From the NCBI RefSeq assembly GCF_037996825.1, contig NZ_JBBNAC010000001.1:682001-746000 (forward strand): a stretch of DNA of 64,000 nucleotides, read 5' to 3'. The position numbers were made by a program, and so were the translations under genes. The notes under the pieces are model-generated. The model was not told where the DNA came from, ran no database searches, and worked only from the letters and a program-made list of their open reading frames with translations. Shown here in pieces: positions 9,447 to 24,547 of this stretch (position 1 is the first letter of the stretch; each line of letters opens with the position of its first letter). The DNA is from Bdellovibrio sp. BCCA (GTDB lineage: Bacteria > Bdellovibrionota > Bdellovibrionia > Bdellovibrionales > Bdellovibrionaceae).

Positions 9447-10339
9447 TTAAAATTTTCCTTTTTTTGTTTTTAGTATGTGCAGCCTCGACTTCAGGGGCTG
9501 CCGAAGAAAGCAAACCCTTATGGGAGTACGGCTTTGGAGCGGGTTATGCGCAGTATGCCCATTATCCGGCGGCTGATCAGTATGCTCAGCTCTTTTTGCC
9601 TTTTCCGACCTTTCAGTATCGCGGTGAAATTTTGCGTGCAGATGATCACGAAGGTGGTCGCGCTTATCTTTTAAAAAATGAAAAGTGGTCCTTGGAGTTT
9701 TCCGGAAGTGGTTCGTTGCCGTTGGATTCTTCTGACAATCGTGCTCGTGAAGGCATGGAGAATCTTCCTTTGGTTTTAGAGGCTGGACCTCAACTGGTCT
9801 ACTCTCAAGATCACGCTTGGGAATTTAAAATCGCTGCATTCCCTTCCATTGTGATCGATGGCGCTTACATTCGCCAAAACGGCGGAAGTCTTAATCTGCA
9901 AGCGGCTTATCGTTGGGAAAAAGAAGTGGTAGGTCTTTTTGTAACTCCGCTGGGCTTAAGTGGTATTTTGACATTAAACGCGAAGGCCGCATCTCAAGAA
10001 TTTCATAAAACTTATTTTGAAGTTTCGGCGAAAGATGCCACAAGTGTGCGATCAAAATATGATGCCGTTGCTGGTTTTTTGGATACACAAGCAACATACT
10101 TTCAAAGAATTTCCAAAGGTCGCTTTACTCTTTACGCAGCAGTTTCTTACACGGATTATTCACAATCGGTGAATCGCAAAAGTCCCTTACATCGAGCGGA
10201 TTCAAACTTTGAATATGGAGTCGGTCTTACTTATGTTCTGGGTGAATCCAAACGTCAGTCTGTTCCTCTTGAAAACACAGAAGGTCTAATCAATAAAGCG
10301 ATTGAGCGTCGTAAGGAACGCCTCGAGCAGTTTCAGTAA
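9428..10339 (+). CDS. MipA/OmpV-family outer membrane protein
   Basis: 303 residues with a Sec signal (F-L-F-L-F-L-V-C-A-A-S, cleavage near S-G-A-A). The mature protein matches the MipA/OmpV family: 'YGFGAGYAQYAHYPAADQ', 'FPTFQYRGEILRADD', repeated aromatic amphipathic strands and a final barrel strand region 'FEYGVGLTYVLGESKR', but it does not end on the usual terminal Phe; a basic tail of about 25 residues follows. In E. coli MipA bridges the murein hydrolase MltA and PBP1b at the outer membrane. It overlaps the upstream hydrolase by 19 bases, so both are probably produced together as envelope proteins. Confidence 0.85.
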   Translation: MVCRSVIKIFLFLFLVCAASTSGAAEESKPLWEYGFGAGYAQYAHYPAADQYAQLFLPFPTFQYRGEILRADDHEGGRAYLLKNEKWSLEFSGSGSLPLDSSDNRAREGMENLPLVLEAGPQLVYSQDHAWEFKIAAFPSIVIDGAYIRQNGGSLNLQAAYRWEKEVVGLFVTPLGLSGILTLNAKAASQEFHKTYFEVSAKDATSVRSKYDAVAGFLDTQATYFQRISKGRFTLYAAVSYTDYSQSVNRKSPLHRADSNFEYGVGLTYVLGESKRQSVPLENTEGLINKAIERRKERLEQFQ

Positions 10340-10340
10340 G

Positions 10341-10363
10341 AAAAAGGTACCAGGTACCTTTTT
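10341..10363. terminator. Palindromic bidirectional terminator built on GGTACC
   Basis: AAAAAGGTACC, one A, then GGTACCTTTTTT: two 11-base arms that are perfect reverse complements. With A-run on one side and T-run on the other it can terminate transcription in both directions, fitting its place between convergent genes (MipA-like, plus; AlkB-like, minus). A partial copy of the GGTACCTGGT core recurs at 11280-11289. Confidence 0.7.
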
Positions 10364-10365
10364 TC

Positions 10366-11241
10366 CTAAAGCTGACTTTTAAAGAATTCGGAATGTTCCG
10401 CGAGTTTTTCCATATAACCGCGCACGTCTTCTTGGGCTTCATTGGGCAAATGTTTAAAAGGCACGATGTGTTCGTCAGGAACATAACGGAAGGTGAAGTT
10501 GATACGACGAGTTTCAAAGTTTGAAATTTCGTTCAGAGGAAAAGTGTGACCCTCTTTTTTATCCACGCGTTGCACACGATGGAAAAGGTGCTTTTTAAAT
10601 TTCTCTCCACCGAAAATTTGCAAAGAGCGATCATCAAGCCACTGTTGCAAGATCACGTTAGATCTGGACTCTGTTCCTTTGCTTGAGACAAATTGGAAAA
10701 GAGCGCGCTCACCAAAAGAAATCGAAGCCACGGGGCCTGGTTCAAAATCTTTGTGCTCACCCACGCGCGCGCAATCCAGGCGTTTGCCGTCTTCTTGAAT
10801 TTGATTTCCGTAGTAGTTAATTAGGCATGTGTTGAGATGCCAGCCACGGGGAATATCGCGCGGTTCAAAAGATTCATGAACTAGAGTTTCAATTTTCTGC
10901 ACAAGGTATTCTAAAATCGGTGGATACCCCTCGGCCTTTACACAGCGATTATAAATTCCTTTAGGCGGATGATAGTAATTCAAACAAGCAAACTGCCAGT
11001 TTCCCAACCAGTAAACCGGGCGCAACAAGGGGCGCTGTTTTTGGTTCTCAGGCGGCGGATTATTTTTGGAATAGCGCATCTCCCAGATCGGGTAGAGCGT
11101 GTTTAAATACTGAAGGATTTCTTCTTTTTCCCGAGGAGAAATGTAGCCCTGTTTATAAACCAGGCCGCGTGCGCGACCGGAAGAGTTTTCCGCTCCTTTG
11201 GGAGGGAATTTGGGCTTGTAAGATCCTTTAGGCTTAAACAT
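10366..11241 (-). CDS. 2-oxoglutarate/Fe(II) dioxygenase, AlkB-like
   Basis: 291 residues. The Fe-binding H-x-D is at about residues 160-162 (G-E-H-K-D-F-E-P), the distal His in 'KKHLFHRVQRV' and the 2-oxoglutarate/substrate-binding arginines in 'RRINFTFRYV' near 243-252, the R-x5-R pattern of AlkB proteins. 'NTCLINYYGN' before the H-x-D matches the AlkB N-Y-Y motif. AlkB enzymes remove alkyl groups from DNA, RNA or proteins by oxidative demethylation. A basic, Pro/Lys-rich N-terminal tail of about 30 residues precedes the domain. No convincing ribosome-binding site is seen before the ATG. Transcribed alone. The substrate (DNA repair or RNA/protein) is open. Confidence 0.85.
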   Translation of the reverse strand: MFKPKGSYKPKFPPKGAENSSGRARGLVYKQGYISPREKEEILQYLNTLYPIWEMRYSKNNPPPENQKQRPLLRPVYWLGNWQFACLNYYHPPKGIYNRCVKAEGYPPILEYLVQKIETLVHESFEPRDIPRGWHLNTCLINYYGNQIQEDGKRLDCARVGEHKDFEPGPVASISFGERALFQFVSSKGTESRSNVILQQWLDDRSLQIFGGEKFKKHLFHRVQRVDKKEGHTFPLNEISNFETRRINFTFRYVPDEHIVPFKHLPNEAQEDVRGYMEKLAEHSEFFKSQL

Positions 11242-11338
11242 AGAAGAAATGGTCTATCATAACTAAGGGCTTCTGCAAAGGTACCTGGTGACAGGGAGGG
11301 CTGCTTCGGATACAAATGACCCGTGGGAGGATGAAAAA

Positions 11339-12367
11339 ATGACAACCCCTGTGAAGGCGACCGTAGGTCCTCAAGAAAAAGAACTTCTTTTAAATCAGAT
11401 CCCTTTCCTTAAAGGTAAAAGAATCCTCATTATTGGAGATGTCGGTCTTGATGAGTACGTCTTGGGTCAAGTTCGCCGTATCAGCCCTGAAGCTCCCGTT
11501 CCTGTTTTGGAAGTGGAAGAAGAAGACATGCGTTTAGGCCTTTCTGCCAACGTCGCACAAAACGTCGCAAGTCTTGGTGGTGAAGCGATGCTCGTTTCTG
11601 TTGTTGGCGATGATACCGGAGCCAATCTTTTAAAAGATCTTTTTGCGAAAAATGGTGTGAGCTGGGATTACATGATTGTCGATAAGGCTCGTCCGACGAC
11701 ACGTAAAACGCGTGTGATGGCAAAACACCATCACTTGGTGCGTGTGGATTATGAGCTTCGCAAATATTTGTCTGCCGAAGCGGAAGCACGCTTAATTGAA
11801 ACTGTTGAAAAGAATGTGGCTAAAGCGGACTGCGTGATTATTGAAGACTACGCAAAAGGTGTGATCTCTCGCAATGTCGTGGAAAAAGTGTCTGCGATTT
11901 GTAAAAAGCACGGTAAAAAATTAATGGTCGATCCACATCGTAATAATCCGGGTTCGTTCTATGCTGGTGTTGATTTGATCAAACCGAATTACGATGAAGC
12001 GGTTGTTTTAACAGGCCTTGATTTTGATGATCTTCGTGACAATCCAAATAAAGTTGTTGAAGTAGGTCGTGCTCTACAAAAAATCACGGGTGCCAAAGAA
12101 GTGGTTTTGACTCGTGGAAAAGACGGAATGACGATTTTCTCCGGTGATGAAATCATGGAAGTTCCAACATACGCCCGCAAAGTTTTCGACGTGACGGGCG
12201 CCGGTGACACGGTGATCGCGACTTTGTCTTTAGGACTGGTTTCTGGTTTGTCTCTTGTTCACTCTTGCATGCTAGCAAACTATGCCGCAGGTGTGGTGGT
12301 TGGCAAAGTTGGATGCGTGCCTTGTGAAATTCCAGAGCTTAAAGAATACATCCAAACAGCTCACTAG
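11339..12367 (+). CDS. rfaE1: D-glycero-beta-D-manno-heptose-7-phosphate kinase (RfaE domain I)
   Basis: 342 residues of the PfkB/ribokinase fold. 'IGDVGLDEYVLGQVRRISPEAPVPV' (seen in two halves) and 'GLSANVAQNVASLGG' are typical of the HldE N-terminal kinase; the catalytic/anion-hole 'VTGAGDT' lies near residues 285-291. It phosphorylates heptose-7-phosphate at C1 on the way to ADP-heptose for the LPS core. The second (nucleotidyltransferase) domain of HldE is absent, so this is a stand-alone HldA/RfaE1-type enzyme whose partner must be elsewhere. Start set at ATG 11339, eight bases after GGGAGG. Confidence 0.88.
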   Translation: MTTPVKATVGPQEKELLLNQIPFLKGKRILIIGDVGLDEYVLGQVRRISPEAPVPVLEVEEEDMRLGLSANVAQNVASLGGEAMLVSVVGDDTGANLLKDLFAKNGVSWDYMIVDKARPTTRKTRVMAKHHHLVRVDYELRKYLSAEAEARLIETVEKNVAKADCVIIEDYAKGVISRNVVEKVSAICKKHGKKLMVDPHRNNPGSFYAGVDLIKPNYDEAVVLTGLDFDDLRDNPNKVVEVGRALQKITGAKEVVLTRGKDGMTIFSGDEIMEVPTYARKVFDVTGAGDTVIATLSLGLVSGLSLVHSCMLANYAAGVVVGKVGCVPCEIPELKEYIQTAH

Positions 12368-12422
12368 GAGTTTTCAAATAACATCTGGCTCCTCACAACG
12401 GGATTGTCATAGCCTCAAGGGC

Positions 12423-13955
12423 ATGAGCTTTTTGTTGTGGGGAGTTTTCATTTCTTTTTATTCTCTTGTTTCCTGCCAAAGCGTTCCTGCAAATTATAAG
12501 GTTTCAGAAAGTCATGCGCTGACCACAACGTCAGACACTTTTTTTGGTCGCCTTTTAGCACCCAGTATTGAGGCGAACCCTGGGAAATCGGGTTTTTATC
12601 CTTTGCAGGCAGGGACTGACGCTTTTGTGGCAAGACTTGAATCGGTTAGACGAGCCCAGAAAAGCCTCGATGTGCAATACTACATTTGGCACGACGACCT
12701 TGTTGGGAAAATTCTTTTCTATGAAATTTTAGCGGCCGCAGATCGCGGTGTTCGGGTGCGCCTGCTTCTGGATGATTTGCACATCGGCCAGTACGAGGAA
12801 TTACTTTTAGTTTTAGATTCGCATCCTTTTATTGAAGTGCGAATGTTCAATCCTTTCGCCAACCGCAGTCTTCGATTTTTGGACGTATTTCGTTTTAGCC
12901 AAATCAATCGTCGTATGCATAACAAAGTTTTGATTGCCGACAACCAAACGGCCATTATCGGTGGACGAAATATTGGCAACGAATACTTCACAGCGAGCCC
13001 TGATGAAAACTTCGGGGATTTTGATGTCTGGTGTTTTGGTCCGGTGGTGAAAGAAAGCTCGCAGTCCTTTGACCTTTACTGGAATCATCGTCTATCGGTT
13101 CCGATTAAAGAACTGAATAAGCGCGAGGTGCAGGGAACGGAATTGGCAAGTTTGCAGAATGACCTTAAGGCCGTTGCACAAAGCGAAGAGGCAAAACCCT
13201 ATTTAAAGGAACTCGCAGAATCTTCATTAGCAAAGAGCATCGAAAATAGAAAAGTGCATTCGTTCTGGGGAAAGGCACAAGTTTTTTCTGACTCTCCGGA
13301 AAAGGTAGCAGGTGAAAGTTATAAAAAAACTTCCATGCTCAATCAAGTGACTGCGTTGCCGATTAAATCTTCCAAAGAGATCTTCATCGTTTCACCTTAT
13401 TTTATTCCCGGAAAAAACGGTGTTGAATATTTCAAGAAAAAATCCAAGGAGGGGGTGAAGGTCACTGTTTTCACGAACTCTTTGGCCTCCAATGATGTTC
13501 CGCTTGTATTCGCAGGATATAAAAAATATCGCAAAGGTTTGCTAAAGGTGGGCGTGGAAATTTACGAAATGCGTCCGCGTATTTCGGCTCAGAAAAAGAA
13601 ATTCTCTAGCAGTCTTTCTGCCGGAGCTCGTTTAGGATTGCATGGTAAAGCGTATGTCTTTGACCGTCGTGTGATGTTCGTCGGTTCTATGAATTTAGAT
13701 CCACGCTCGGTCGAACTTAATTCAGAAATGGGCGTTTTATTTGAAAGTCCCGAGCTTGCACAAAAGTTTGTGGAGCTAACATTGAATGAACTTCCCGATG
13801 TCGCTTACAAGGTGACTTTAAACGAGGGAAAATTGCAATGGACGACTCAAGAAGGTGAAAACCAAGTGACAGTGGAATCTGAACCCGAAGCTTCCGTATG
13901 GAAGAGTTTTAAAGCGGGCTTCCTTTCCTTGTTTGTTCCCGAGAGTATGTTATAA
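12423..13955 (+). CDS. Phospholipase D-family lipoprotein (cardiolipin-synthase-like)
   Basis: 510 residues. Begins with a hydrophobic segment ending in a lipobox, L-V-S-C followed by Q, so it is probably an acylated lipoprotein outside the cytoplasm. Two complete HKD motifs are present: M-H-N-K-V-L-I-A-D with 'GGRNIGNEYF' after it (His near residue 166), and L-H-G-K-A-Y-V-F-D with 'GSMNLDPRS' (His near residue 406). This is the arrangement of phospholipase D / cardiolipin synthase proteins that transfer or hydrolyse phosphatidyl groups. Typical ClsA has two N-terminal membrane helices; these are replaced here by the lipoprotein signal, which resembles the exported ClsC/YmdC group. An in-frame extension back to 12282 lies inside rfaE1 and is not used. 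Role could be in own membrane lipids or prey lipids. Confidence 0.88.
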   Translation: MSFLLWGVFISFYSLVSCQSVPANYKVSESHALTTTSDTFFGRLLAPSIEANPGKSGFYPLQAGTDAFVARLESVRRAQKSLDVQYYIWHDDLVGKILFYEILAAADRGVRVRLLLDDLHIGQYEELLLVLDSHPFIEVRMFNPFANRSLRFLDVFRFSQINRRMHNKVLIADNQTAIIGGRNIGNEYFTASPDENFGDFDVWCFGPVVKESSQSFDLYWNHRLSVPIKELNKREVQGTELASLQNDLKAVAQSEEAKPYLKELAESSLAKSIENRKVHSFWGKAQVFSDSPEKVAGESYKKTSMLNQVTALPIKSSKEIFIVSPYFIPGKNGVEYFKKKSKEGVKVTVFTNSLASNDVPLVFAGYKKYRKGLLKVGVEIYEMRPRISAQKKKFSSSLSAGARLGLHGKAYVFDRRVMFVGSMNLDPRSVELNSEMGVLFESPELAQKFVELTLNELPDVAYKVTLNEGKLQWTTQEGENQVTVESEPEASVWKSFKAGFLSLFVPESML

Positions 13956-13962
13956 AGCCCTC

Positions 13963-14346
13963 ATGAAGACACGCACTTATAAAGTCAATTCTCAGTTATT
14001 ACCCGAAGGTTTTCCCAGAGAGTTTGATGCTCATATTTATTTCTCGGAAACTTCTTTTGAGAAAGCCCATCGGTTGCGCGAAGAGGCCATCGCGCGATTT
14101 GCAGGTCAGCGCGTGTTCGTAGGGCAAATGATTCCCGAAGCCATCGGCCCCCATCCTATTCCGATGTTTGAAATCAATTTTCCCAAAGAGCTCTTCACCG
14201 ACGTGGTCTTGTGGCTTATGAAAGCCCGTGGAGATTTATCAGTCCTCGTACATGAATTGACAGGAAACGATCTCTACGATCATACTCAAGCCGCCATGTG
14301 GCTCGGCGAAGCCGTTCCTCTCGATTATTCCGAGTTTAAATCTTAA
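13963..14346 (+). CDS. DOPA 4,5-dioxygenase-family protein
   Basis: 127 residues, the usual length of the family. The conserved pieces are in order: 'FDAHIYFSE' (metal-ligand His), 'IGPHPIPMFEINF', 'VLVHELTGNDLYDHTQAAMWLGE'. The repeated His residues are likely metal ligands of an extradiol-type fold; the physiological substrate in bacteria is not established. Start set at the ATG at 13963, seven bases after the PLD gene ends. Its last four bases overlap the convergent DEDD/GIY-YIG gene. Confidence 0.82.
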   Translation: MKTRTYKVNSQLLPEGFPREFDAHIYFSETSFEKAHRLREEAIARFAGQRVFVGQMIPEAIGPHPIPMFEINFPKELFTDVVLWLMKARGDLSVLVHELTGNDLYDHTQAAMWLGEAVPLDYSEFKS

Positions 14347-15902
14347 GACATTTCTACAATATGATCTTGGGAACGGAGTTTGTTGAGTTCCGTGTAGAGA
14401 ACGGTCATGCGGTCGTAGGTATCGACGGAGTGGTCTTTCCAAGGACACTTGCTAATGGTTTTTGGAAGGTCTTCCTTAACGATATGACCATTGTGAATTC
14501 TAAGATCAATCTTTTGTTCACCGGTGACTTGAATATGGGCATTCATCAAAGCTGTTAGCTTTTTTGTGCGCAGGTAAGTCGCTGCAGAACGGATGAAGTG
14601 TCGCTCAAACTTATCGGCGATATCTTCCGCCGTAAGTTCTGTTTCTACGTCATCATCTTCTTCGGAAGTTTCTGTTTCTTCCAAAAGCTCCTGGGCCTCT
14701 TCTTCATCTTCGTCTTTAAGTTTGCGATACCAGTTCAGTCCCACGGCCAAAATCGCACGAACGGATGTGAATTCATACATCTCAAAACCATGGCGTTCAC
14801 AGAAAAGCTGGAAGCCCTCTTTCAGAAGTTCGGCATCCAAAGGCTCATAGAACATATTTTCGTCAAAGCTTTCTGCCGCTAAGGACGCACTCAATCTTAA
14901 AATCGAGTCCAATGCCATCGCATTAGAAAAAGGCCCGATGAAATGTTCGTCGTCAGCTTCAGCGCGTGACGAAGTGAAATCACGGTTAAAAAACGCCAGC
15001 TCGCGACGGCCCACCTTTAAACTCACGTTGTAAGGAGGATTGAGTCTTTTGATCTCGTCGGTTTCTAATAAAGCAGCTTCCAACGGACTTCCTACAGTTG
15101 TGACATGCAAGTCCCAAACTTGAGTCAGCATTTCAAGCTTTCGTGTGTCGCGATTTTTCTGACCACGGAAGTAACTGTTCACGCGATCGTGCAGAGAGGT
15201 CGCCTTACCAACATAAAGAACTTCGCCCCAGCGACTCATCATGCGATAGATGCCAGGCTCTTTAGGAAGGCTCAGACGTTTTTCTTTCGGTAAAGGATAT
15301 TCGTATTTACTACGGGCTGTTTTCGGAGTTTCTTGCAGCCAGTGATGAAGTTCTTCAACAGTATGAATGCCTTTTTCTTCCAAGGCTGCGGTGAGCCCTT
15401 GCCAAATCACTTGTGTTGCTTGCACATGATTGGCGGCGCGTTTTAATTCCCCCGAAGGACAGCCAAAGTATCCAGCAAGTCCTTTAATACCGCGAGTGGG
15501 AAGATTCGGAAAAAGTCTTTTGGCAATTTCGTGAGTGCAAAGAATAGAAAATGGCATGGCCTCTTGTAGTTTTTCGTAAGCGTCCGCTAAGAACGGTTTT
15601 TCAAACTGCGCAAAGTGGATCACGGCTAATACGTCTTCGCCGACATGAGTTTTGATAAATTCTTTTAAAGAAGAAAATACTTCAGGCAAAGGACGAGCGT
15701 CCACCATGTGCTTATCGTAAATTCCCGTGATGAATTGAATACGGCGAGGAACAGGTTGATCTTCTGGTTGTTGCACCAAAAAGCTTTCAACAGTCTCGGA
15801 TTGCAAAGAGCCCCAAGCAATTTCCAAAATATTGGCAGTATCAGGTTTTGCCCCTGTAGTTTGTAAATCTAAAAAAAGAACGGATTTCTTTTTAAGACTC
15901 AT
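14343..15902 (-). CDS. DEDD exonuclease-fold (degenerate) fused to GIY-YIG nuclease
   Basis: 519 residues. Residues 1-170 have the DnaQ-like exonuclease fold, but the catalytic acids are altered: motif I reads D12-L-Q14-T-T-G (usual D-x-E-T-T-G), motif II H96-F-A-Q-F-E101 (usual Asp), motif III H159-V-Q-A-T-Q164 (usual Asp). Residues about 213-300 are a GIY-YIG domain like UvrC/Cho: 'EPGIYRMM', 'LYVGKATSLHDRVNSYF', and the catalytic Glu in 'AALLETDEIKRLNPPYN', all intact. The last 200 residues include a very acidic stretch (D-E-D-E-E-E-A-Q, E-E-D-D-D-V-E-T). Exonuclease-GIY-YIG fusions are known as UvrC-like incision proteins; here the exonuclease part is probably structural. Overlaps the helicase gene by 11 bases. 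Confidence 0.85.
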   Translation of the reverse strand: MSLKKKSVLFLDLQTTGAKPDTANILEIAWGSLQSETVESFLVQQPEDQPVPRRIQFITGIYDKHMVDARPLPEVFSSLKEFIKTHVGEDVLAVIHFAQFEKPFLADAYEKLQEAMPFSILCTHEIAKRLFPNLPTRGIKGLAGYFGCPSGELKRAANHVQATQVIWQGLTAALEEKGIHTVEELHHWLQETPKTARSKYEYPLPKEKRLSLPKEPGIYRMMSRWGEVLYVGKATSLHDRVNSYFRGQKNRDTRKLEMLTQVWDLHVTTVGSPLEAALLETDEIKRLNPPYNVSLKVGRRELAFFNRDFTSSRAEADDEHFIGPFSNAMALDSILRLSASLAAESFDENMFYEPLDAELLKEGFQLFCERHGFEMYEFTSVRAILAVGLNWYRKLKDEDEEEAQELLEETETSEEDDDVETELTAEDIADKFERHFIRSAATYLRTKKLTALMNAHIQVTGEQKIDLRIHNGHIVKEDLPKTISKCPWKDHSVDTYDRMTVLYTELNKLRSQDHIVEMS

Positions 15903-18264
15903 AAGAACTCCAAAACTCTTGGACGTCTTTAAGAATCTGCCTTGATACTAATTCTTGCGGAGAATCCTGAAACCAACCTTCGGGCATCGTTTCAGCATAA
16001 CTGTTCTGCAAAAAGCGTGAGTCCAGCATCACAATCACACCGCGATCCGTTTCTGAACGAATCACACGTCCTGCCGACTGGATGGCTTTTGCCATAGCCG
16101 GATAAACATACGCATAGTTAAAGGCATTGTCTTTGCCATAACGGTTTTCATAATAAGTACGAATTTGCTCGCGCTCAAAATCAAAGTTGGGAAGTGCCGG
16201 ACCTACAACAAAAGCGCCAATGAGCATATCACCAGGGAAGTCCACGCCTTCAGAGAAAACTCCACCCTGCACGCCCATCAATAAAGTGGGGCGTTGAGCG
16301 GCTTTCATTTCTTCAAGATAACTTTGGATTTGTTGCTGCTTCATTTCTCGTTCTTGCGTCAGAATTTGAAACTCTGGAAGCTGCAACTTTTGTAAAACCA
16401 TTCCCATAAATTCAAAGCTTGGGAAAAGAGCAATGTAATTTCCAGATTTCACTTGCGTGATTCTTTGAATGGCGTCGGCAATTTTACCGGCGTTCATATG
16501 ACGATCTGAAAATTTTGTTGAAATCTGTGGAATGATCAAAAGCTTACGGTTGTCTTTAGTAAACGGTGAAGAGAACTCAATTTGTTTCGTTGTTTCTTTC
16601 GGAAAACCCAAAAGTTCTTGATAATAATTAAACGGCTTTAGCGTAGCTGAAAATGCCACGACATTCTTAAATTCTTTATATGCCAAAGACAAATGATCGG
16701 CAGCATCACAGCAGGTGATCTTCAACATCTCAGAATAGTTGCTCTTTTGATAGGTCTGAAAAAACTCTTCGCCACTTAAAGCTAGCGAGTTTACAAAATC
16801 CGACCACATATTCATAAAGCGCAACATAGGATCTTGGTTTTGAATCTCTTCGTCAGACTCCAAATACTGAACGGTCAAATCGCGAATATCCGCATCTAGA
16901 TCTTCAAACGGCTCCATCATGATTTCAATCTTTTTGGAAACGCCATCAAGACCGTAAGACTGAATCAGCTTGCGAGCCTGTTGCAACAAAACTTGCGCAC
17001 GCAAAGAAAACGACGGTGAGAGTTTTACCAAGTCGCGCTCTAAGATATTAAGCTGTTGAGTCGAAATACTCGGAGAAAAATAATCCTGCGCTCGTGAAGG
17101 AAGATTGTGAGCCTCATCAATAACCAGATTGGCTTTTTCCTTTGGTTCAAGCAAAGGCTCTGCCAAGCGGCCAATCAAACTGCGGGGAGCAAACACATAG
17201 TTGTAATCGCCAATCACCACATCGGCGCGCTCAATGGCTTCAATAGAAAGTTCAAAAGGGCAAACTTGATATTCTTCCGCCATGGCCTTGAGTTTATGAC
17301 TGTCAAGACTGCGCAACCTCGCAAGTTTATTTACAAGATCGTTTTCATGAACCTTTTTATAATAATCATTCGCAAACTCACAGTATTTGGGATTGCAAAG
17401 AGGCTCAGCCTTCATGCACATCTTGCTTTTTGCCGTGATAGTCAAAGATCGCACTTTGCAACCTTGCTCTTGCATGCGCTCAACGGCTTCTTCAGCAACC
17501 TGATGCTGGGAGTTTTTAGGCGTGACGTAGACCACTTTTTGGCCACGAGCCATAGCTTCTTTCAAAGAGGGATATAAAATCCCCACAGTTTTTCCAAGGC
17601 CCGTCGGAGCTTGAATCAAAAGAGGATTTTCTGTGGCAAAATTTTCGGTGACCGAATCGACGAGTTCCCGTTGTCCTCGGCGCGGAGCGGGAAACGGAAA
17701 AGCCATTTCTTCAGAAATCTGCTGACGTTTTTTAAATAACTTCTCTTTGATCTTCGTTTCAACAACAAGTTCTTCCAAGCGAAGAGCGAGCCAGGTCTCG
17801 TATTCTTCAATATCCAATAAAACGGGTAAGTCGCGAAATTTATAATAATTGCGAGCTGAAACCAGACAAAGATTCAAACGTGGAACAACGCCCGTGTGTT
17901 TGTAGTGCATGTATCCATAAGTGCGGACCTGCCACACGTAGGGATGATTGGGCTCCAAGGTCAACTTATCGTAAAGTTCATCAATATCAAAACTGGTTTT
18001 GATTTCTTCAATCATCGCCGGATATTCGACAAATCCATCAGCACGTCCCGAGATCTCAAATTCATAAGGAGACTTCGTAAAGGTAAAAGAGATTTTTTTC
18101 TCAGGCGTATAATCCGAATTTTCGCGCACACGAATTCTTTGTACTGCTTGATGAATTTCCTGACCACTCAGTGGAGGCGCTCCATAACCGGAATGCGTCT
18201 CGATGTGTCCTACACGAGGAGTTGGAATCGCAAATTGTCGAACATCGAGATGAACTTTACGCAT
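15892..18264 (-). CDS. RecB/Cas4-like nuclease fused to XPD/DinG-type Fe-S helicase
   Basis: 790 residues. Residues 1-170 look like a PD-(D/E)XK nuclease of the RecB/Cas4 kind: 'SGRADGF' (Asp) near residue 75, 'MIEEIKTS' (E-x-K) near 87, and 'QVRTYGYMHY' (the Q-x3-Y motif). Then a superfamily 2 helicase: Walker A 'APTGLGKT' at about 216-223, four cysteines for a 4Fe-4S cluster between about 280 and 336 (M-C-M-K, P-L-C-N, K-Y-C-E, V-C-P-F), DEAH box 'VIDEAHNLP' near 380, and motif VI 'QSAGRVIRSETDRG' near the C-terminus. XPD/DinG helicases unwind 5'-3' and act at R-loops, bubbles and lesions. Middle gene of a minus-strand trio; one base separates it from the radical SAM gene. Confidence 0.9.
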   Translation of the reverse strand: MRKVHLDVRQFAIPTPRVGHIETHSGYGAPPLSGQEIHQAVQRIRVRENSDYTPEKKISFTFTKSPYEFEISGRADGFVEYPAMIEEIKTSFDIDELYDKLTLEPNHPYVWQVRTYGYMHYKHTGVVPRLNLCLVSARNYYKFRDLPVLLDIEEYETWLALRLEELVVETKIKEKLFKKRQQISEEMAFPFPAPRRGQRELVDSVTENFATENPLLIQAPTGLGKTVGILYPSLKEAMARGQKVVYVTPKNSQHQVAEEAVERMQEQGCKVRSLTITAKSKMCMKAEPLCNPKYCEFANDYYKKVHENDLVNKLARLRSLDSHKLKAMAEEYQVCPFELSIEAIERADVVIGDYNYVFAPRSLIGRLAEPLLEPKEKANLVIDEAHNLPSRAQDYFSPSISTQQLNILERDLVKLSPSFSLRAQVLLQQARKLIQSYGLDGVSKKIEIMMEPFEDLDADIRDLTVQYLESDEEIQNQDPMLRFMNMWSDFVNSLALSGEEFFQTYQKSNYSEMLKITCCDAADHLSLAYKEFKNVVAFSATLKPFNYYQELLGFPKETTKQIEFSSPFTKDNRKLLIIPQISTKFSDRHMNAGKIADAIQRITQVKSGNYIALFPSFEFMGMVLQKLQLPEFQILTQEREMKQQQIQSYLEEMKAAQRPTLLMGVQGGVFSEGVDFPGDMLIGAFVVGPALPNFDFEREQIRTYYENRYGKDNAFNYAYVYPAMAKAIQSAGRVIRSETDRGVIVMLDSRFLQNSYAETMPEGWFQDSPQELVSRQILKDVQEFWSSYES

Positions 18265-18265
18265 A

Positions 18266-19345
18266 TCAATCTAGTTTAAATTGCAGTTGATCCCCGGGCC
18301 TTTGAAAGTGTGCTGCCGAGAGTTCAAACTCTTTCACATTTAAATTATATTTGCGAGTATAAAGAGCAAACATTTGCGCCATTTGGTCCGCTCTGGCGCC
18401 TTCTCCGCGCATACGCGATCCAAAGTTAGGATCATTGAGTTTGCCGCCCCGAATATCACGCACCGAGTTTAAAACTTTTTGCTTTTTTAGTGGGCGATGG
18501 ACTTCCAACCATTCATCAAAAATCGGTAAAACCGAAGACGGCAGTCGCAAAGGAACGTATCCGGCAAAGCTGGCTCCCGCTTCACTAGCAGCTTTTAAAA
18601 TCATTGGCATTTCATGATCAGTGAGGCCGGGAATACAAGGTGCAACATTCACGCCTACCGGAATCCCTTCCTTAGCCAAAGTTTCAATCGCCTTAAGACG
18701 CGCCATCGGATGAGAAGTGCGCGGTTCTAAAGTGCGAGCAAGGTCAGCATCCAGTGATGTCACTGAAAGAAAAATCAAAATGCCGTCATACTTGGCCATC
18801 TCTTTAAAAATATCTAAGTCTCTCAAGATCAACGCATTTTTCGTGATCATCGAAACAGGATTTTTAAATTCCAACAAAACCTGCAGGCAGCCGCGAGTCA
18901 GCTCTTTTTGTCTTTCGAGCGGTTGATAGCAGTCCGTAATGCCGCTCATGTTGATCACTTCCGGTTGCCAAGATTTTTTCATCAAAGCTTCACGCAAAAG
19001 TTTAGGAGCTTCTTCTTTCACAAAAATTTTAGATTCAAAATCAAGCCCCGGAGAATAACCTAAATACTCGTGGGTCGGGCGCGCATAGCAGTACGCGCAG
19101 CCGTGTTCACAGCCGCGATAGGCATTCACTGAAAAGCGAAAACCGACATCAGGAGATTTGTTTTCCGTGATAATGGTGCGTGAAGAGTCTTTGAGGACTT
19201 CCGTTTTGAGAAGAGGCTTCTCGTCAGCATCAATGTAATTATCAAATTCTTCTTCGGTAGCTTCGTATTTAAGAGAGTCGTAACGATTGGTGACGTTGCT
19301 ACTGGCTCCACGACCACGAATATCTTTTCGAAATTCACGAGTCAT
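18266..19345 (-). CDS. Radical SAM protein, PA0069/SplB-like family
   Basis: 359 residues. The [4Fe-4S]-SAM motif C-x3-C-x2-C is at about residues 80-87 (R-G-C-E-H-G-C-A-Y-C-Y). Other family pieces are 'GRGASSNVTNRYD', 'TITENKSPDVGF'-like segment, 'INMSGITDCYQPLE', 'SMITKNALILRDLD' and 'TLEPRTSHPMARL', all as in the PA0069 group, which is related to spore photoproduct lyase. Substrate is unestablished; the link to SplB suggests nucleic-acid repair or modification. First gene of the trio with the nuclease-helicase and GIY-YIG genes, which strengthens a DNA role. Confidence 0.85.
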   Translation of the reverse strand: MTREFRKDIRGRGASSNVTNRYDSLKYEATEEEFDNYIDADEKPLLKTEVLKDSSRTIITENKSPDVGFRFSVNAYRGCEHGCAYCYARPTHEYLGYSPGLDFESKIFVKEEAPKLLREALMKKSWQPEVINMSGITDCYQPLERQKELTRGCLQVLLEFKNPVSMITKNALILRDLDIFKEMAKYDGILIFLSVTSLDADLARTLEPRTSHPMARLKAIETLAKEGIPVGVNVAPCIPGLTDHEMPMILKAASEAGASFAGYVPLRLPSSVLPIFDEWLEVHRPLKKQKVLNSVRDIRGGKLNDPNFGSRMRGEGARADQMAQMFALYTRKYNLNVKEFELSAAHFQRPGDQLQFKLD

Positions 19346-19370
19346 AGGCAGCCAGTATATGCCAAAAAAA

Positions 19371-19397
19371 TAAAAAACCGCAAAGCAGAATGCCGTT
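19371..19397 (-). terminator. Probable terminator after the secreted protein gene
   Basis: On the minus strand a short imperfect stem (AAC-G-GCA / TGC-G-GTT) is followed by six T, an A and seven more T. It lies 40-60 bases after the stop of the minus-strand gene that ends at 19435 and before the radical SAM gene. Confidence 0.45.
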
Positions 19398-19434
19398 TGG
19401 CTAGACTGCTAAGGCTTGTTTACTCAATATGAGT

Positions 19435-20280
19435 TCAGTTTAAATTCGTAAAAGGCAATTCTAAACCGTTAAAAATATAAACCGGTCGCAGCGCTTGCCC
19501 TGCAGATTCTCCGGGAACAAAAATGCGCACGTTAAACACCAAGGATGCGTTTTCCAGGACGGGATGTTGTGTTTGCAACCAGTTTTGCACGGCAGATTCC
19601 ACTTGAGTCGTTAATTCAGATGTGAAAGAGGTTGGAACCATTAATAACACGGAAGCCATAGCTCCTGAATTTTTATATAAGTAATTGATTTCAAGTGAGA
19701 TCAAAGCATTCTGTGAAGCTTGTTCGATGGTTTCATTGAAAGCTAAGTCCAACCATGTCTTCAATGAGCTCACCTGGTTCTTTTGTCCTAGCAGCTCGGG
19801 TAAGCTTGCTGGTCCCGTCGAGGCGGCCAAAGGGTATAAGGGAGAAACAAAAGACACCCAAGGACTCTTACCCGTAGAATCAAAAGCTTGAACTTTGATA
19901 TGGGCTTGTGGGTGAACCAATGCATTCCAAGACTTGATTGAAACAAAAAGCACACCGGCAGAATTTTCTGTGGTTTCAATTGATTTTAAATCTGCAGAAA
20001 ACCCTTTATCAAAACTGACTAACAAGGCGCCGGAATTAGAACGAGTGATATGAAAGAAAGGTTGTTGATCTTCAAGACTAAGATGGAAACCTGCCCCTGG
20101 AAAATTCGCCGGAGCCGTAAGCTGGATTGTTACCGTGCCTAGAGCGGATTGCTGCAGTCGTGAAATATTTGAATCTGGCACGAAGCTTTGTCCCAGCAAA
20201 GACGGCGGAGTCGCAGCAAGAGCTGATGTACTAAAACCTAAAAACAAACCCAAGAGCATAGATAAAGAAAGTGTTTTCAT
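19435..20280 (-). CDS. Secreted protein of unknown function
   Basis: 281 residues with a Sec signal peptide (L-S-M-L-L-G-L-F-L-G-F, cleavage after A-L-A near residue 22). The mature part is Ser/Gln/Leu-rich, with only one Trp-rich segment ('KSWNALVHPQAH') and no cysteines, and reads like a beta-sandwich followed by an alpha/beta C-terminal part with 'TLTTQVESAVQNWLQTQ'-type helix. No family is recognised. A TATAAT-like -10 (minus strand, 20317-20322) lies upstream, so it is probably transcribed on its own. Confidence 0.7.
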   Translation of the reverse strand: MKTLSLSMLLGLFLGFSTSALAATPPSLLGQSFVPDSNISRLQQSALGTVTIQLTAPANFPGAGFHLSLEDQQPFFHITRSNSGALLVSFDKGFSADLKSIETTENSAGVLFVSIKSWNALVHPQAHIKVQAFDSTGKSPWVSFVSPLYPLAASTGPASLPELLGQKNQVSSLKTWLDLAFNETIEQASQNALISLEINYLYKNSGAMASVLLMVPTSFTSELTTQVESAVQNWLQTQHPVLENASLVFNVRIFVPGESAGQALRPVYIFNGLELPFTNLN

Positions 20281-20342
20281 GGAAGCTTCATAACGAAGTT
20301 CCCTGGTAAACTCAAATTATATAAACGAAGGAATCGGGAATT

Positions 20343-21521
20343 CTACTTCGCAGGAATTTCTTGCAAGGGATGATGATGTCTTTCGCGTTTAAACAAGAAA
20401 GCAAAACTATTCACCATCAAGAAGGATAGAATCACAAATCCTAAACCCCAGAGGAGCGCTTGTTTAATGCTAAACAAGTCCGTCAGTTTCCCAATCGTCA
20501 GATGCATTAGAATCAACATAATGGAATCCGTCGCCATCATATACGAAACGGCGGAATCCAAGTCCTCAGGAAACTCTGTGGAGATCCAGGAAATCGATAG
20601 AGGGTAAAATGGCGCAATCATAAAACCTGTTCCCGCCAAGAACAGAGGATGAATAAATACGCCAGCTAAGATAAAAACACCGGTCATCACTAAAGAGCTC
20701 GACAATAAAAATTGCGGAGAACGTTTGAAGTGAACCACGGCAAAAAGAAAACGTCCTAGCATCATGCAAATAAAGAAATAAGTGACGTAAAGACTTGAAG
20801 CCTCCATGTCGTAATTCCAAGTGCGTTGCATGTACAGAGCTAAACGCGAAGACACCATAATCTCGGCTGCGACGGCAAGGCTCAGCATGATAGCTAAAAA
20901 CAACTGCGGCTTAAAATTTTTCTGCTTATTGGCTTTGTGTTTCTCAGGAGAAAACTCTGCTTTCGTGTGCAAAGACTTGTGACTTCTGTGAAAAGTATAA
21001 ATCAAAAGAAGTACAGGTCCTAAAGAGCCAGCAGCAAAAGTCCAGCGCCAGCTTCCAGTGAGATACTCCATGGAGGCTGCTAAAAGAGGCGCCAGCAAAC
21101 TCGCCATTCCGTACATAGTGTGAAGGCCCGAAAGCATTTGTTGCTTGCGATGAGGACTGGAGCCCATCGGCACTAAGATATTAGGCACTAAACCCAATAC
21201 GCCCAGGCTTAAACCAAAGAAAAAACTGAAAAATAAAAACAAAGGAAAAATCGGAGAGGCCGCCATACCCCACATCGAGAGCATCAAGCCAATCGCTCCA
21301 CTGCGCAGAACCGTCAGGCGATCATAGCGTCGCAAAAGATAACGACAGCCATAGCTCGCAAAAAAGCCTGAAATATTACTGAGCGCAAACATCAAAGACC
21401 CCATAGAGTCACTGATCGCAAAATGCTTCATGATTTCAGGAAACAAAGGCCCACGGATATTGTCGGAAAGTCCGAAGACAAAGAGGCTTGCGTAAGAAAG
21501 AAAAATAAAGGGCCAAATCAT
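20343..21521 (-). CDS. Major facilitator superfamily transporter
   Basis: 392 residues with about twelve hydrophobic segments. The first half has 'LFVFGLSDNIRGPLFPEI' and 'YLLRRYDRLTVLRSGAIG', corresponding to the loop 2-3 basic motif of MFS carriers; a long cytoplasmic loop rich in Lys/His ('HKSLHTKAEFSPEKHKAN') separates the halves. Start taken at ATG 21521 with GAAGG just upstream; an extension to 21635 would precede the first membrane helix without a clear ribosome-binding site. Substrate not predictable; sequence feel is closest to sugar- or drug-type uniporters of the Fuc/NarK-like groups. Divergent from rlmN. Confidence 0.82.
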   Translation of the reverse strand: MIWPFIFLSYASLFVFGLSDNIRGPLFPEIMKHFAISDSMGSLMFALSNISGFFASYGCRYLLRRYDRLTVLRSGAIGLMLSMWGMAASPIFPLFLFFSFFFGLSLGVLGLVPNILVPMGSSPHRKQQMLSGLHTMYGMASLLAPLLAASMEYLTGSWRWTFAAGSLGPVLLLIYTFHRSHKSLHTKAEFSPEKHKANKQKNFKPQLFLAIMLSLAVAAEIMVSSRLALYMQRTWNYDMEASSLYVTYFFICMMLGRFLFAVVHFKRSPQFLLSSSLVMTGVFILAGVFIHPLFLAGTGFMIAPFYPLSISWISTEFPEDLDSAVSYMMATDSIMLILMHLTIGKLTDLFSIKQALLWGLGFVILSFLMVNSFAFLFKRERHHHPLQEIPAK

Positions 21522-21593
21522 GCCTTCAATATAAAGACCTGAGAGGGTGAACTCAAGGAGGAGAGGGGTAATATGAGGACTCTTATGTAGAAT

Positions 21594-21613
21594 TTGCTTA
21601 AAGTTGCTTAAAG
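21594..21613. repeat. Tandem 10-bp direct repeat in the MFS-rlmN intergenic region
   Basis: TTGCTTAAAG occurs twice with no gap. The period equals about one helical turn. It sits between two divergent genes (start codons at 21521 and 21774), so it could be an operator or simply slipped-strand duplication. Confidence 0.6.
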
Positions 21614-21773
21614 TCAGGCAGCCCGGCTCGTCCAAAGGGACAATTCCATGAAATTCCTAGGAAAAAAGGGGGGCTTGTGCTACAAAATCGCCCACACATA
21701 TCCTTTAACCAAAGAGACTGACAAGGTCTCAGCTGTAACAAGCATGGCTGTAATAAGCCCGAGGAGCCCGAAG

Positions 21774-22991
21774 ATGGAATTAAACAACGGCGGCGTTGAA
21801 AACGCTCTGTCTGCCCCTGTGAACTATGCTGACGATAACGTCGCAAAACCTCTCGAAAACAAACCCGTCAATTTTTACTCAATGACTCTTGAAGATTTGA
21901 AAGCCTACCTTAAAGGGAAGGGCAAAGAGCAATTCCGCGCTCAACAAATTTTCAAATGGGTTTACGAACAAAGAATCACAGACCCTGAACAAATGACGAA
22001 TCTCTCAAAAGAATTCCGTGCTTCTTTGCCGCAACTTTTGAGCTTCGAACTTCCAAAAGTTTTAACTCACTTAAAATCAGTCGATGGCACTCAGAAATTG
22101 CTTTTTGATATGGGCAATGGCCAAAGTGTCGAAGCTGTTTTGATTCCATCGGAAGATCGTCTGACATTGTGTATTTCTTCCGAAGTTGGTTGCAACATCG
22201 GTTGTAAGTTCTGCTTCACTGGAAAACAAAAACTAAAACGTCGCTTGCGCACGGAAGAAATCGTGGGCCAATTCATGCAATGTCATGATCGCATGGGCGA
22301 CGGCCAGCGCATCACAAACATCGTTTTCATGGGCATGGGCGAGCCGTTGGATAATCCAGAAGCCGTCTTTAAAACCATCGACGTTATTCACTCTCCATGG
22401 GGTATCAATCTTTCTCGCAAAAAAATCACGGTCTCGACGTCAGGTATCGTTCCAGAAATGTGGCGTGTCGCTGACGCGAAAGTGCGTTTAGCCGTGAGCT
22501 TAAACGGTCCAACGGATGAGATTCGTTCACAAGTGATGCCGATCAATAAAAAATGGAATACGACGGAACTTTTGAACGCTTGTAAAGAGTATTGCCGTAT
22601 CACGAAAGACAAAGTCACTTTCGAGTACGTTTTGCTTAAAGGTGTGACAGATCAAATCGAACACGCTCGCCAGTTGGTGAAATTGGTGAAGGATGTTCCT
22701 TGTAAGATCAACATCATTCCGTTCAATGAACATCCAGGTTCTGGTTACGAGCGTCCTTCGGATGAAGCTGTCGAGGCTTTCCACTCGGAACTTATGCGCC
22801 TTGGTGCCCATGTTCTTCTTCGCCGCTCCATGGGGCGCGACATCTTTGCGGCTTGCGGTCAGTTGACAAGTCAGGTGCCGAACAAGCCTGAAACTATGGA
22901 TATCTCTAACTCTAAACTTGCGGGTCTTCCAAAGTACAAGCGTGAGATGCTTGCAGCTGCTGAAGCCGCGACGAATAACAACAATCAATAA
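21774..22991 (+). CDS. rlmN: Dual-specificity 23S rRNA (A2503) / tRNA (A37) C2-methyltransferase
   Basis: 405 residues. A radical SAM methyltransferase: cluster motif C-N-I-G-C-K-F-C at about residues 140-147, 'GMGEPLDN', 'VSTSGIVPEMWR', 'AVSLNGPTDEIRSQVMPINKKW', and the C-terminal mechanistic Cys in 'GRDIFAACGQL' near residue 361. RlmN methylates A2503 in the peptidyl-transferase centre and A37 of some tRNAs, influencing fidelity. Start set at ATG 21774, seven bases after GAGGAG; this leaves a 30-residue N-terminal extension relative to many RlmN proteins. Likely co-transcribed with the sugar kinase 12 bases downstream. Confidence 0.95.
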   Translation: MELNNGGVENALSAPVNYADDNVAKPLENKPVNFYSMTLEDLKAYLKGKGKEQFRAQQIFKWVYEQRITDPEQMTNLSKEFRASLPQLLSFELPKVLTHLKSVDGTQKLLFDMGNGQSVEAVLIPSEDRLTLCISSEVGCNIGCKFCFTGKQKLKRRLRTEEIVGQFMQCHDRMGDGQRITNIVFMGMGEPLDNPEAVFKTIDVIHSPWGINLSRKKITVSTSGIVPEMWRVADAKVRLAVSLNGPTDEIRSQVMPINKKWNTTELLNACKEYCRITKDKVTFEYVLLKGVTDQIEHARQLVKLVKDVPCKINIIPFNEHPGSGYERPSDEAVEAFHSELMRLGAHVLLRRSMGRDIFAACGQLTSQVPNKPETMDISNSKLAGLPKYKREMLAAAEAATNNNNQ

Positions 22992-23003
22992 GGAACCGAC
23001 ATC

Positions 23004-23912
23004 ATGTCTGAAATTCTCGTTGTAGGAAGTCTTGCTTACGATTCAATTCAAACGCCATCAGGAAAAGTCGATCGCGCGTTGGGCGGCTCTGCGAATTATT
23101 TTTCTTTGGCAGCCTCTTTGTTTTCTAAAGTGCGCGTTGTCGGTGTTGTCGGTGAAGATTACGAGCAGAACGATTATGAGTTGCTTCACTCTCGCGGTGT
23201 TGATTTGACCGGCCTTTCAAAAGTTCCAGGAAAGACATTTCATTGGGCGGGTTCTTATGAAGGCGACATGAATGAAGCGAAAACTTTGAAAACGGATTTG
23301 AACGTGTTTGAACACTTCAACCCGCAATTGCCGGAGCATTTCAAAGATTCTTCTTTCGTTTTCTTGGCTAACATTGCTCCAGAACTTCAATTGCAAGTTT
23401 TGGAACAGGTGAAAGCTCCAAAGTTTGTGGGCATGGATTCCATGAACTTGTGGATCAATATCAAAAAAGAAAAAGTAATCGAAGTTCTTAAGAAGGTCGA
23501 TCTTGTTTTGATCAACGAAGGTGAAGCCAAAATGCTCACGGGCGCAGCGAATGCCATTTCAGCCGCTCCGATGATCACAGATCTTGGACCAAAAACAGTG
23601 GTGATCAAACGTGGTGAGTACGGCTTTGCGATGTACTCTAAAACAGATGGTTACTTCATCTTGCCTGCGATGCCGATTCCGACAGTCGTCGATCCAACAG
23701 GTGCGGGTGATACATTCGCCGGCGGTTTCTTCGGATACTTGGCAGCGCAAAAAGAAGTTCCAACGGTAGGTAACTTGAAACAGGCTTGTATCATGGGTTC
23801 TATGATGGCAAGTCACACGATTCAGGACTTCTCTGTAAGAGCTCTTGCGAAAGTCACACTCAGTGACCTGGAAAAACGTCTCACTGAATACAAAAAAGTG
23901 ATTACGGTTTAG
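23004..23912 (+). CDS. PfkB-family carbohydrate/nucleoside kinase
   Basis: 302 residues with the ribokinase fold: 'VVGSLAYDSIQTPSG', 'ALGGSANYFSLAASLF', 'VKRGEYGFAMYS', and the signature 'DPTGAGDTFAGGFFGYLA' with catalytic Asp near residue 236. These features fit adenosine kinase/ribokinase-like enzymes; the exact sugar or nucleoside is not readable. An AAGGA site precedes the ATG. Follows rlmN by 12 bases and is followed by a strong terminator. Confidence 0.85.
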   Translation: MSEILVVGSLAYDSIQTPSGKVDRALGGSANYFSLAASLFSKVRVVGVVGEDYEQNDYELLHSRGVDLTGLSKVPGKTFHWAGSYEGDMNEAKTLKTDLNVFEHFNPQLPEHFKDSSFVFLANIAPELQLQVLEQVKAPKFVGMDSMNLWINIKKEKVIEVLKKVDLVLINEGEAKMLTGAANAISAAPMITDLGPKTVVIKRGEYGFAMYSKTDGYFILPAMPIPTVVDPTGAGDTFAGGFFGYLAAQKEVPTVGNLKQACIMGSMMASHTIQDFSVRALAKVTLSDLEKRLTEYKKVITV

Positions 23913-23935
23913 TAAATTTAAAAAATCTCAAAATG

Positions 23936-23963
23936 AAAAGCCTCGCGAAAGCGGGGCTTTTTT
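23936..23963 (+). terminator. Rho-independent terminator after the PfkB kinase gene
   Basis: Stem AAAAGCCTCGC / GCGGGGCTTTT (one G-U pair) closed by a GAAA tetraloop and followed by a T-run. Ends the rlmN-kinase transcript. Confidence 0.88.
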
Positions 23964-24045
23964 AGTTTTATCCTTAGTCGATTCCAGCAGTTAGAGCGAA
24001 ATCCGAGTCACAGCATTTAAAAATTATTTAATCCCGTTTTCATAG

Positions 24046-24057
24046 GTTCTTAAGAAC
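24046..24057. promoter_or_regulatory. 12-bp perfect palindrome upstream of the small secreted protein gene
   Basis: GTTCTTAAGAAC reads the same on both strands and lies about 62 bases before the start codon at 24120, where a repressor or activator dimer could bind. A shorter relative (TCTTAAGA) appears upstream of traT. Function is inferred from position only. Confidence 0.35.
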
Positions 24058-24119
24058 GCTTTGTTAATCTGATTTCAGCAAGAGAAGAGATGATTCTCAC
24101 AAACCAAATGGAGGTTTTT

Positions 24120-24338
24120 ATGAAATCAGCAATCGTTCTTATGTCAATCGTACTTGCAGGTGTTTTCGCTCAAGCACAAGGCACAGGCGCAGCTCCTCAG
24201 CAGTCAAACACTGCAAACTCTGAAGTTTCTCAACAACAAAAAGCAGATTCTGCTGTTGTGAAAAAAGAGAAAAAACATAAAAAACACGGCAAAAAAGAGA
24301 AATCAGAAAAAGAAAAATCAGAAAGCATGACTAAATAG
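24120..24338 (+). CDS. Small secreted Lys-rich protein
   Basis: 72 residues. Signal peptide M-K-S-A-I-V-L-M-S-I-V-L-A-G-V-F-A, cleavage near A-Q-A. The mature part starts Gln/Ser/Ala-rich and ends in a run of Lys, Glu, His and Ser (K-K-E-K-K-H-K-K-H-G-K-K), so it is intrinsically disordered and highly basic; it could bind polyanions such as LPS, peptidoglycan-linked polymers or nucleic acid. Start fixed by GGAGG six bases upstream. The 14-base leader AACCAAATGGAGGT is shared with traT. Followed by a GC-rich hairpin. No family recognised. Confidence 0.72.
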   Translation: MKSAIVLMSIVLAGVFAQAQGTGAAPQQSNTANSEVSQQQKADSAVVKKEKKHKKHGKKEKSEKEKSESMTK

Positions 24339-24348
24339 TTTCCTGATG

Positions 24349-24376
24349 AGTGCCCTCGATCTTAGCCGAGGGCACT
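24349..24376 (+). terminator. Hairpin after the Lys-rich protein gene
   Basis: Perfect ten-base-pair stem AGTGCCCTCG / CGAGGGCACT with an eight-base loop, twelve bases after the stop codon. The following T-run is weak, so termination strength is uncertain. Confidence 0.6.
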
Positions 24377-24547
24377 TCGTTATCGCAAATTTTTCTCTAG
24401 AATCATATTCGCGTTTGAAGCATTTTCCGTTTCGGGTTGAAGCGAATTTTAAAAAATATACGCTAATCATGACGGCCATCATCACACTCCACGATTTCGC
24501 AACACTACCCTGAGATAAGGAAGTGCAAAGGAATTGCAGGAGGACGT

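Follow-up and report, generated by a model that had tools for sequence, protein, structure and literature searches.

The locus described here lies in a 64,000-nucleotide stretch of the genome of Bdellovibrio sp. BCCA (contig NZ_JBBNAC010000001.1, positions 682,001 to 746,000 of the forward strand; hereafter the window) and comprises three minus-strand open reading frames at 18266-19345 (359 amino acids), 15892-18264 (790 amino acids) and 14343-15902 (519 amino acids). The first two are spaced by 1 bp and the last two overlap by 11 bp, in agreement with a first-pass annotation, made from the DNA letters alone, which had described three minus-strand genes with a one-base gap and an 11-base overlap. 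Below, HEL denotes the gene of the EndoDinG-type helicase, GIY the gene of the pseudo-DEDD GIY-YIG protein and MBL a metallo-beta-lactamase. HEL and GIY form the conserved core of the locus, to which a radical SAM gene of the PA0069 family is added as an occasional first gene. The features are as follows:

18266-19345, minus strand: PA0069-family radical SAM protein, not part of the conserved core (NF033668, 472 bits against a cut-off of 360)
15892-18264, minus strand: EndoDinG-type helicase, 790 amino acids, PD-(D/E)XK nuclease plus iron-sulphur (Fe-S) XPD/DinG 5'-3' helicase (Pfam, structure match)
17695-18264, minus strand: predicted nuclease domain of the helicase, residues 1-190 (alignments, fold matches, AlphaFold2 predicted local distance difference test score, pLDDT, 88.9)
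17587-17610, minus strand: Walker A region APTGLGKT, residues 219-226 (near-invariant alignment columns)
17260-17418, minus strand: Fe-S cluster segment with C283, C290, C295 and C335 invariant (10-homologue alignment)
15973-16470, minus strand: Helicase_C_2 motor domain (Pfam)
15892-15902, minus strand: 11-bp overlap of the HEL stop and the GIY start (open reading frame coordinates)
14343-15902, minus strand: pseudo-DEDD GIY-YIG endonuclease, 519 amino acids (Pfam RNase_T and GIY-YIG; AlphaFold2 pLDDT 88.9)
15333-15902, minus strand: degenerate DEDDh exonuclease domain, residues 1-190 (fold match; D12-x-Q14, H96..F100-E101)
15003-15281, minus strand: UvrC-type GIY-YIG domain, residues 208-300 (Pfam; UvrC structure 1yd6)
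14346-14885, minus strand: C-terminal region of the GIY protein, residues 340-519 (no Pfam match)

The motor of the helicase is of the XPD/DinG type (Helicase_C_2 139 bits, DEAD_2 52 bits), and the full-length protein matches the DinG structure of Finegoldia magna (9kqh, E 1.8e-95). No other Helicase_C_2 protein exists in the window genome, in which HEL encodes the sole helicase of the XPD/DinG family. Ten homologues from Bdellovibrionota, Legionella, Listeria, Burkholderia and Acetoanaerobium were aligned; besides the Fe-S cysteines, the residues of the core ATPase motifs are constant among them, and H38, E55, D76, E87-I-K89, Q112 and Y116 of the nuclease domain are invariant. This N-terminal PD-(D/E)XK domain has no Pfam match in the window protein and was recognised by its motifs and its predicted fold, which resembles the N-terminus of 9kqh (Z 16.7, root-mean-square deviation (rmsd) 3.4, 180 residues aligned), Cas4 SSO0001 (Z 14.0) and the Cas4/Cas1/Cas2 structure 7mi4 (Z 12.0), with further matches to LHK-Exo, RecE, EXO5 and MGME1. 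Motor domains, Fe-S cysteines and Cas4-like predicted fold bear out the first-pass description of an XPD/DinG Fe-S helicase with an N-terminal RecB/Cas4-type nuclease. Judged by its motor, its CCCC Fe-S motif and its predicted PD-(D/E)XK domain, the window helicase is a member of the EndoDinG subgroup, which was named by Cheng (2025) with DinG of B. bacteriovorus HD100 as representative, and whose endonuclease activity is stated there as unpublished data (PMC11981726).

The GIY protein starts with a domain whose predicted fold is close to the exonucleases of PolC (Z 22.8, rmsd 1.8, 184 residues aligned) and S. aureus DinG (Z 20.1, rmsd 2.5, 177 residues aligned), but D12-x-Q14 and H96..F100-E101 stand where canonical DEDD proteins have D-x-E and N..FD. 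In a tree of 58 relatives, with clade counts taken over the rows with readable motif I, D-x-Q is found in all 49 readable rows of one clade, which is split from the canonical proteins with full support in the Shimodaira-Hasegawa-like approximate likelihood ratio test; the canonical rows have D-x-E (7/7), and AHNxxFD as second motif in the six where it was located. A C-terminal T-Y-D-R-M motif was seen only in the D-x-Q clade. The second domain is 41-43% identical to the UvrC domain structure of B. caldotenax (1yd6), and its catalytic residues G217, Y219, Y230, G232, R240, E280 and N292 are invariant in the alignments. Thus, the earlier assignment of a degenerate DEDD domain joined to a UvrC-like GIY-YIG nuclease was correct. 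Going by these residues, the exonuclease domain is probably inactive, yet kept under selection; since the DEDD residues are lost while the degenerate pattern is conserved across the clade, a binding role is suggested. No relative of the GIY protein was present in the virus-like contigs searched.

HEL and GIY occur together in 22 of the 24 genomes of the genus, and the other two have neither. Among 60 relatives, 26 contain both genes, five HEL only, none GIY only and 29 neither, with a Fisher value that is inflated by kinship. HEL directly before GIY was found in one scan of a genome collection in Bacteriovorax, Legionella, Tatlockia, Melainabacteria and other Cyanobacteriota bins, and Aminicenantes. 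The pair therefore extends over at least four phyla, including Bdellovibrionota, Legionella (on plasmids), Melainabacteria/Cyanobacteriota and Aminicenantes, and with linkage kept at this distance and in 22/24 genus members, chance adjacency was rejected. The two genes overlap in 38 of 40 HEL-GIY loci; in two further loci (L053, L058) the order is reversed and the overlap still present. Where a D-x-Q GIY gene does not lie beside a same-strand HEL (13 genomes), EndoDinG sequence was detected in eight; one of these (G298) has HEL on the opposite strand near GIY, and some are split between contigs or frames. Three Legionella plasmids (L075, L078, L082), two of them typed as conjugative, carry the pair beside umuD and Y-family polymerases, and dinB, an SOS-associated peptidase, Ku, ligD or UdgX are found on one or two of the three. 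These surroundings place the pair among DNA-damage genes.

Other genes were also seen next to D-x-Q GIY genes. A calcineurin-like phosphoesterase gene follows GIY, often overlapping it, in four loci (L097:7683-8765, L099:4393-5499, L101:5116-6171, L103:7719-8762), the last of which holds a helicase-GIY-phosphoesterase trio; the three phosphoesterases scanned have a Pfam match, and a 'DTHLG..RPR..RRRRG' start is common to these proteins. Two tandem genes for dynamin-like GTPases, one of which seems to have a relative in L099, lie upstream of GIY in opposite orientation in L097 (2011-5759).

The radical SAM gene behaves differently from the pair. Its relation to spore photoproduct lyase, as proposed in the first-pass annotation, was rejected, the scores being far below the cut-offs (TIGR04070 13 bits against 400, TIGR03886 16 against 438, Pfam SPL 12 against 27); it belongs to the PA0069 family instead. 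In the 22 genus members keeping HEL-GIY, the gene is adjacent to the pair in 12, located elsewhere in two and missing in eight (G006 is a genome with the pair and no PA0069 gene), and two genomes, G025 and G043, have it but not the helicase. Beyond the genus, a helicase was found near this gene in one case only, on the opposite strand (L034). A genome-level co-occurrence of the two genes outside the genus (p ~1e-3) is weak evidence because helicase-positive genomes there are also larger. The linkage of the radical SAM gene is genus-restricted and partial. Of the earlier idea of a single three-gene system, whose co-occurrence and order were to be checked across genomes, the compact nuclease-helicase/GIY-YIG pair with its conserved order was upheld, but the radical SAM protein fell away.

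HEL is combined with other nucleases in other lineages. In 15 Bdellovibrionota loci a gene of the TIGR04122 type (an MBL-type, ligase-associated DNA damage response exonuclease) directly precedes HEL and thus holds the partner position; two scored proteins from these loci exceed the TIGR04122 cut-off, and a separate scan found more HEL-adjacent copies above it. GIY and TIGR04122 neighbours were never seen at the same locus, and 27 of 28 genomes with the TIGR04122-type arrangement lack a full-length D-x-Q GIY. In the window genome, a single TIGR04122 gene exceeds the cut-off; it lies at G000:C1:2689106, a long way from the operon. A helicase-adjacent copy in G028 (L041:8394-8906) looks internally deleted (170 amino acids) and is possibly a decaying partner. 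A third arrangement was read on replicons of the plasmid collection, where in four Burkholderia replicons a homologous helicase (27% identity) overlaps a FAN1 gene by 4 bp; in contrast to GIY, this partner lies upstream and its fold is VRR-NUC (FAN1_HTH, FANC_SAP and VRR_NUC domains in the one protein scanned). A search of the window genome for VRR_NUC gave no hit. When partners are mapped on a 71-row HEL tree, 8 changes of the label suffice, compared to 26.7 in shuffles; the TIGR04122 loci form one nested group that spans several families, and those with FAN1 make up a single clade. The order of the exchanges is unsure because several deep branches of this tree are long. Nevertheless, the sequences point to the helicase as the constant part and to the partner nuclease as the exchangeable one.

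Comparison with known systems delimits the module. The review defining EndoDinG covers the same protein family and genus, with the PD-(D/E)XK N-terminus and the CCCC Fe-S domain, but treats the helicase alone; in its main text, neither GIY and its overlap with HEL nor the radical SAM gene is mentioned, and partners of the MBL and FAN1 kinds do not appear there either (PMC11981726). The best-studied nuclease-fused relative is another XPD-family nuclease-helicase, the ExoDinG of S. aureus, in which nuclease and ATPase are both required for mitomycin C and formaldehyde resistance, while its deletion leaves ultraviolet (UV) and methyl methanesulfonate (MMS) resistance unaffected (PMC12345164). There, an active DEDDh domain is fused to the motor, whereas in the window a Cas4-like nuclease is fused and the inactive-looking DEDDh domain sits on a separate partner. 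The curated family nearest to the GIY protein, the DEDD exonuclease-GIY-YIG proteins of PRK07883 (NF005906), has the same domain order, but the window protein scores 174 bits against a cut-off of 495, has D-x-Q and FE in place of D-x-E and FD and thus lost acidic exonuclease residues, falls into the separate clade and is associated with EndoDinG; it is not a canonical member. With UvrC it shares the GIY-YIG domain only: TIGR00194 gives 86 bits against 285, matched at model positions 4-137 of 574, and the UvrB-binding and second nuclease domains of a full-length UvrC are lacking. Nor is it Cho (NF007833, 36 bits against 367), a protein without a DEDD domain.

Separate excision repair genes exist in the window genome, namely UvrA in two copies over the curated cut-off (G000:C1:2350657-2353185 and 3644132-3646987), UvrB and a UvrC frame. 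A replacement of UvrABC by the module was rejected on these grounds; the module would supplement rather than replace excision repair, and the operon is distinct from UvrABC, as the first-pass annotation had proposed.

We favour the interpretation, with a probability of roughly 0.55, that HEL and GIY encode two translationally coupled enzymes which together make up a DNA-repair module, its targets probably being crosslinks or bulky blocks. This is based on the DNA-damage genes surrounding the pair on plasmids, the phenotype of S. aureus DinG and the roles of FAN1 and SNM1A, nucleases which act in eukaryotic crosslink repair (PMC4348246, PMC7607226). The unit looks like one of two genes, not like a three-gene pathway or a predation tool. 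Where DNA is blocked or damaged, EndoDinG would load on a single-stranded part, open the duplex 5' to 3' and cut the displaced or 5' strand. The inactive exonuclease domain may serve as a docking platform for DNA or protein that positions the GIY partner, which would nick the strand across the other side of the lesion, and the damaged or crosslinked segment would be released, followed by gap filling. In relatives, the same motor may work with a different second nuclease, the MBL exonuclease or FAN1. Physical contact of the two enzymes, their division of cuts and crosslinks or bulky blocks as main substrate are all inferred from this evidence. Several observations count against the proposed module. 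Crosslink specificity is drawn by analogy from S. aureus DinG and the eukaryotic FAN1/SNM1 families; EndoDinG occurs without a partner in Listeria and Enterococcus, which means that a partner is not obligatory; FAN1 pairing was seen only on the four replicons of one genus; and LexA-like boxes (consensus TTACNNNGTAA) are not above chance in the window, with none upstream of the operon. In addition, the kinship of the TIGR04122 family with SNM1 does not go beyond shared membership of the metallo-beta-lactamase superfamily.

The strongest competitor, which we consider rather unlikely, is a general processing of replication forks and recombination intermediates by flap and end trimming as in Dna2 or AddAB, with no special link to crosslinks. 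The nuclease domain indeed resembles Cas4, RecE, EXO5, AdnAB and Dna2, solo EndoDinG exists in Firmicutes, and the DinG review proposes roles in both repair and replication (PMC11981726). However, what recurs as second enzyme is either a structure-specific endonuclease or a nuclease of the MBL or FAN1 type, and nuclease-fused DinG had phenotypes with crosslinkers and none with UV or MMS (PMC12345164). A defence system in which helicase-nuclease and GIY-YIG protein destroy phage or plasmid DNA, similar to CasDinG of type IV CRISPR, is improbable. It would fit the match of the helicase to the PADLOC typeIV_DinG profile (3.5e-120), the motor fold common to both and the mobility of the pair on Legionella plasmids; on these plasmids, however, the neighbours are repair genes, and near-universal presence in the genus (22/24) also speaks against defence. 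The window helicase moreover has the nuclease domain and keeps the Fe-S cysteines that CasDinG has lost (PMC11981726). At the window locus, the neighbours are mainly housekeeping genes; none of the ten neighbouring proteins (9428-14346 and 19435-26080) gave a Cas match in PADLOC, where a weak match of the PLD/DrmC type was the only one, and no CRISPR-like array was found in 8000-27000.

Slightly less probable still is a pathway of three parts, with lesions repaired or sensed by the radical SAM protein in the manner of spore photoproduct lyase. Its adjacency in 12/22 genus members and the genome-level co-occurrence, with the size effect described above, agree with it; family membership, loss or relocation in 10/22 genomes in which the pair stays, and occurrence without the helicase disagree. 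Least probable of all is a predation tool which degrades prey DNA, also raised in the first-pass annotation. The window genome does come from a predatory genus, but the pair resides next to genes for the SOS response, end joining and translesion synthesis on Legionella plasmids, as well as in Melainabacteria and uncultured Aminicenantes, two genomes of the same genus do without it, and the protein families are those of intracellular repair.

Concerning the extent of the operon, the radical SAM gene is preceded, 89 bp away and in the same orientation, by the gene at 19435-20280, and the spacer between them contains a T-rich stretch which, judged by eye, is terminator-like. Downstream of GIY, the gene at 13933-14346 has the opposite orientation. 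Consequently, the operon probably comprises three genes at most. In a promoter scan, the 100 bases preceding the radical SAM gene yielded no candidate. Further genes of the window are an AlkB-type 2-oxoglutarate-Fe(II) oxygenase (PF13532) at 10366-11241, about 3 kb from the operon and possibly another nucleic-acid repair gene, and a two-domain protein of the phospholipase D (PLD) family at 12282-13955, whose weak match to the DISARM DrmC profile probably reflects the shared PLD fold only. In the phage collection, full-length EndoDinG was confined to records without annotation, which carry the names of Listeria or Enterococcus phages or stem from faecal samples, and which may be host DNA.

The first-pass annotation had regarded the individual families as known and the operon as undescribed. 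The helicase subgroup is indeed already known, as EndoDinG. The literature searched, which leaves out preprints and most subscription papers, gave no account of the GIY partner, of its pseudo-exonuclease clade, of the gene overlap or of the exchange of partners, and an earlier description is possible. The main text of a Bdellovibrio transposon-screen paper does not mention helicases, nucleases or repair (PMC6561027).

As a broader and distinctly more tentative idea, EndoDinG might be the base of a modular bacterial crosslink-unhooking machine, with a pseudo-exonuclease GIY-YIG protein, an SNM1-fold exonuclease or FAN1 as partner depending on the lineage, in parallel to the eukaryotic FANCJ/XPD helicases and the nucleases SLX1, SNM1A and FAN1. 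Crosslink repair in bacteria is usually credited to UvrABC and recombination. If true, a second route would be provided by a compact nuclease-helicase unit that is horizontally mobile and can exchange its partners, and this unit would tie together three nuclease folds of eukaryotic crosslink repair. The conserved pseudo-exonuclease offers a testable docking hypothesis, and deletion tests are feasible, as the named representative of the helicase comes from a laboratory organism.

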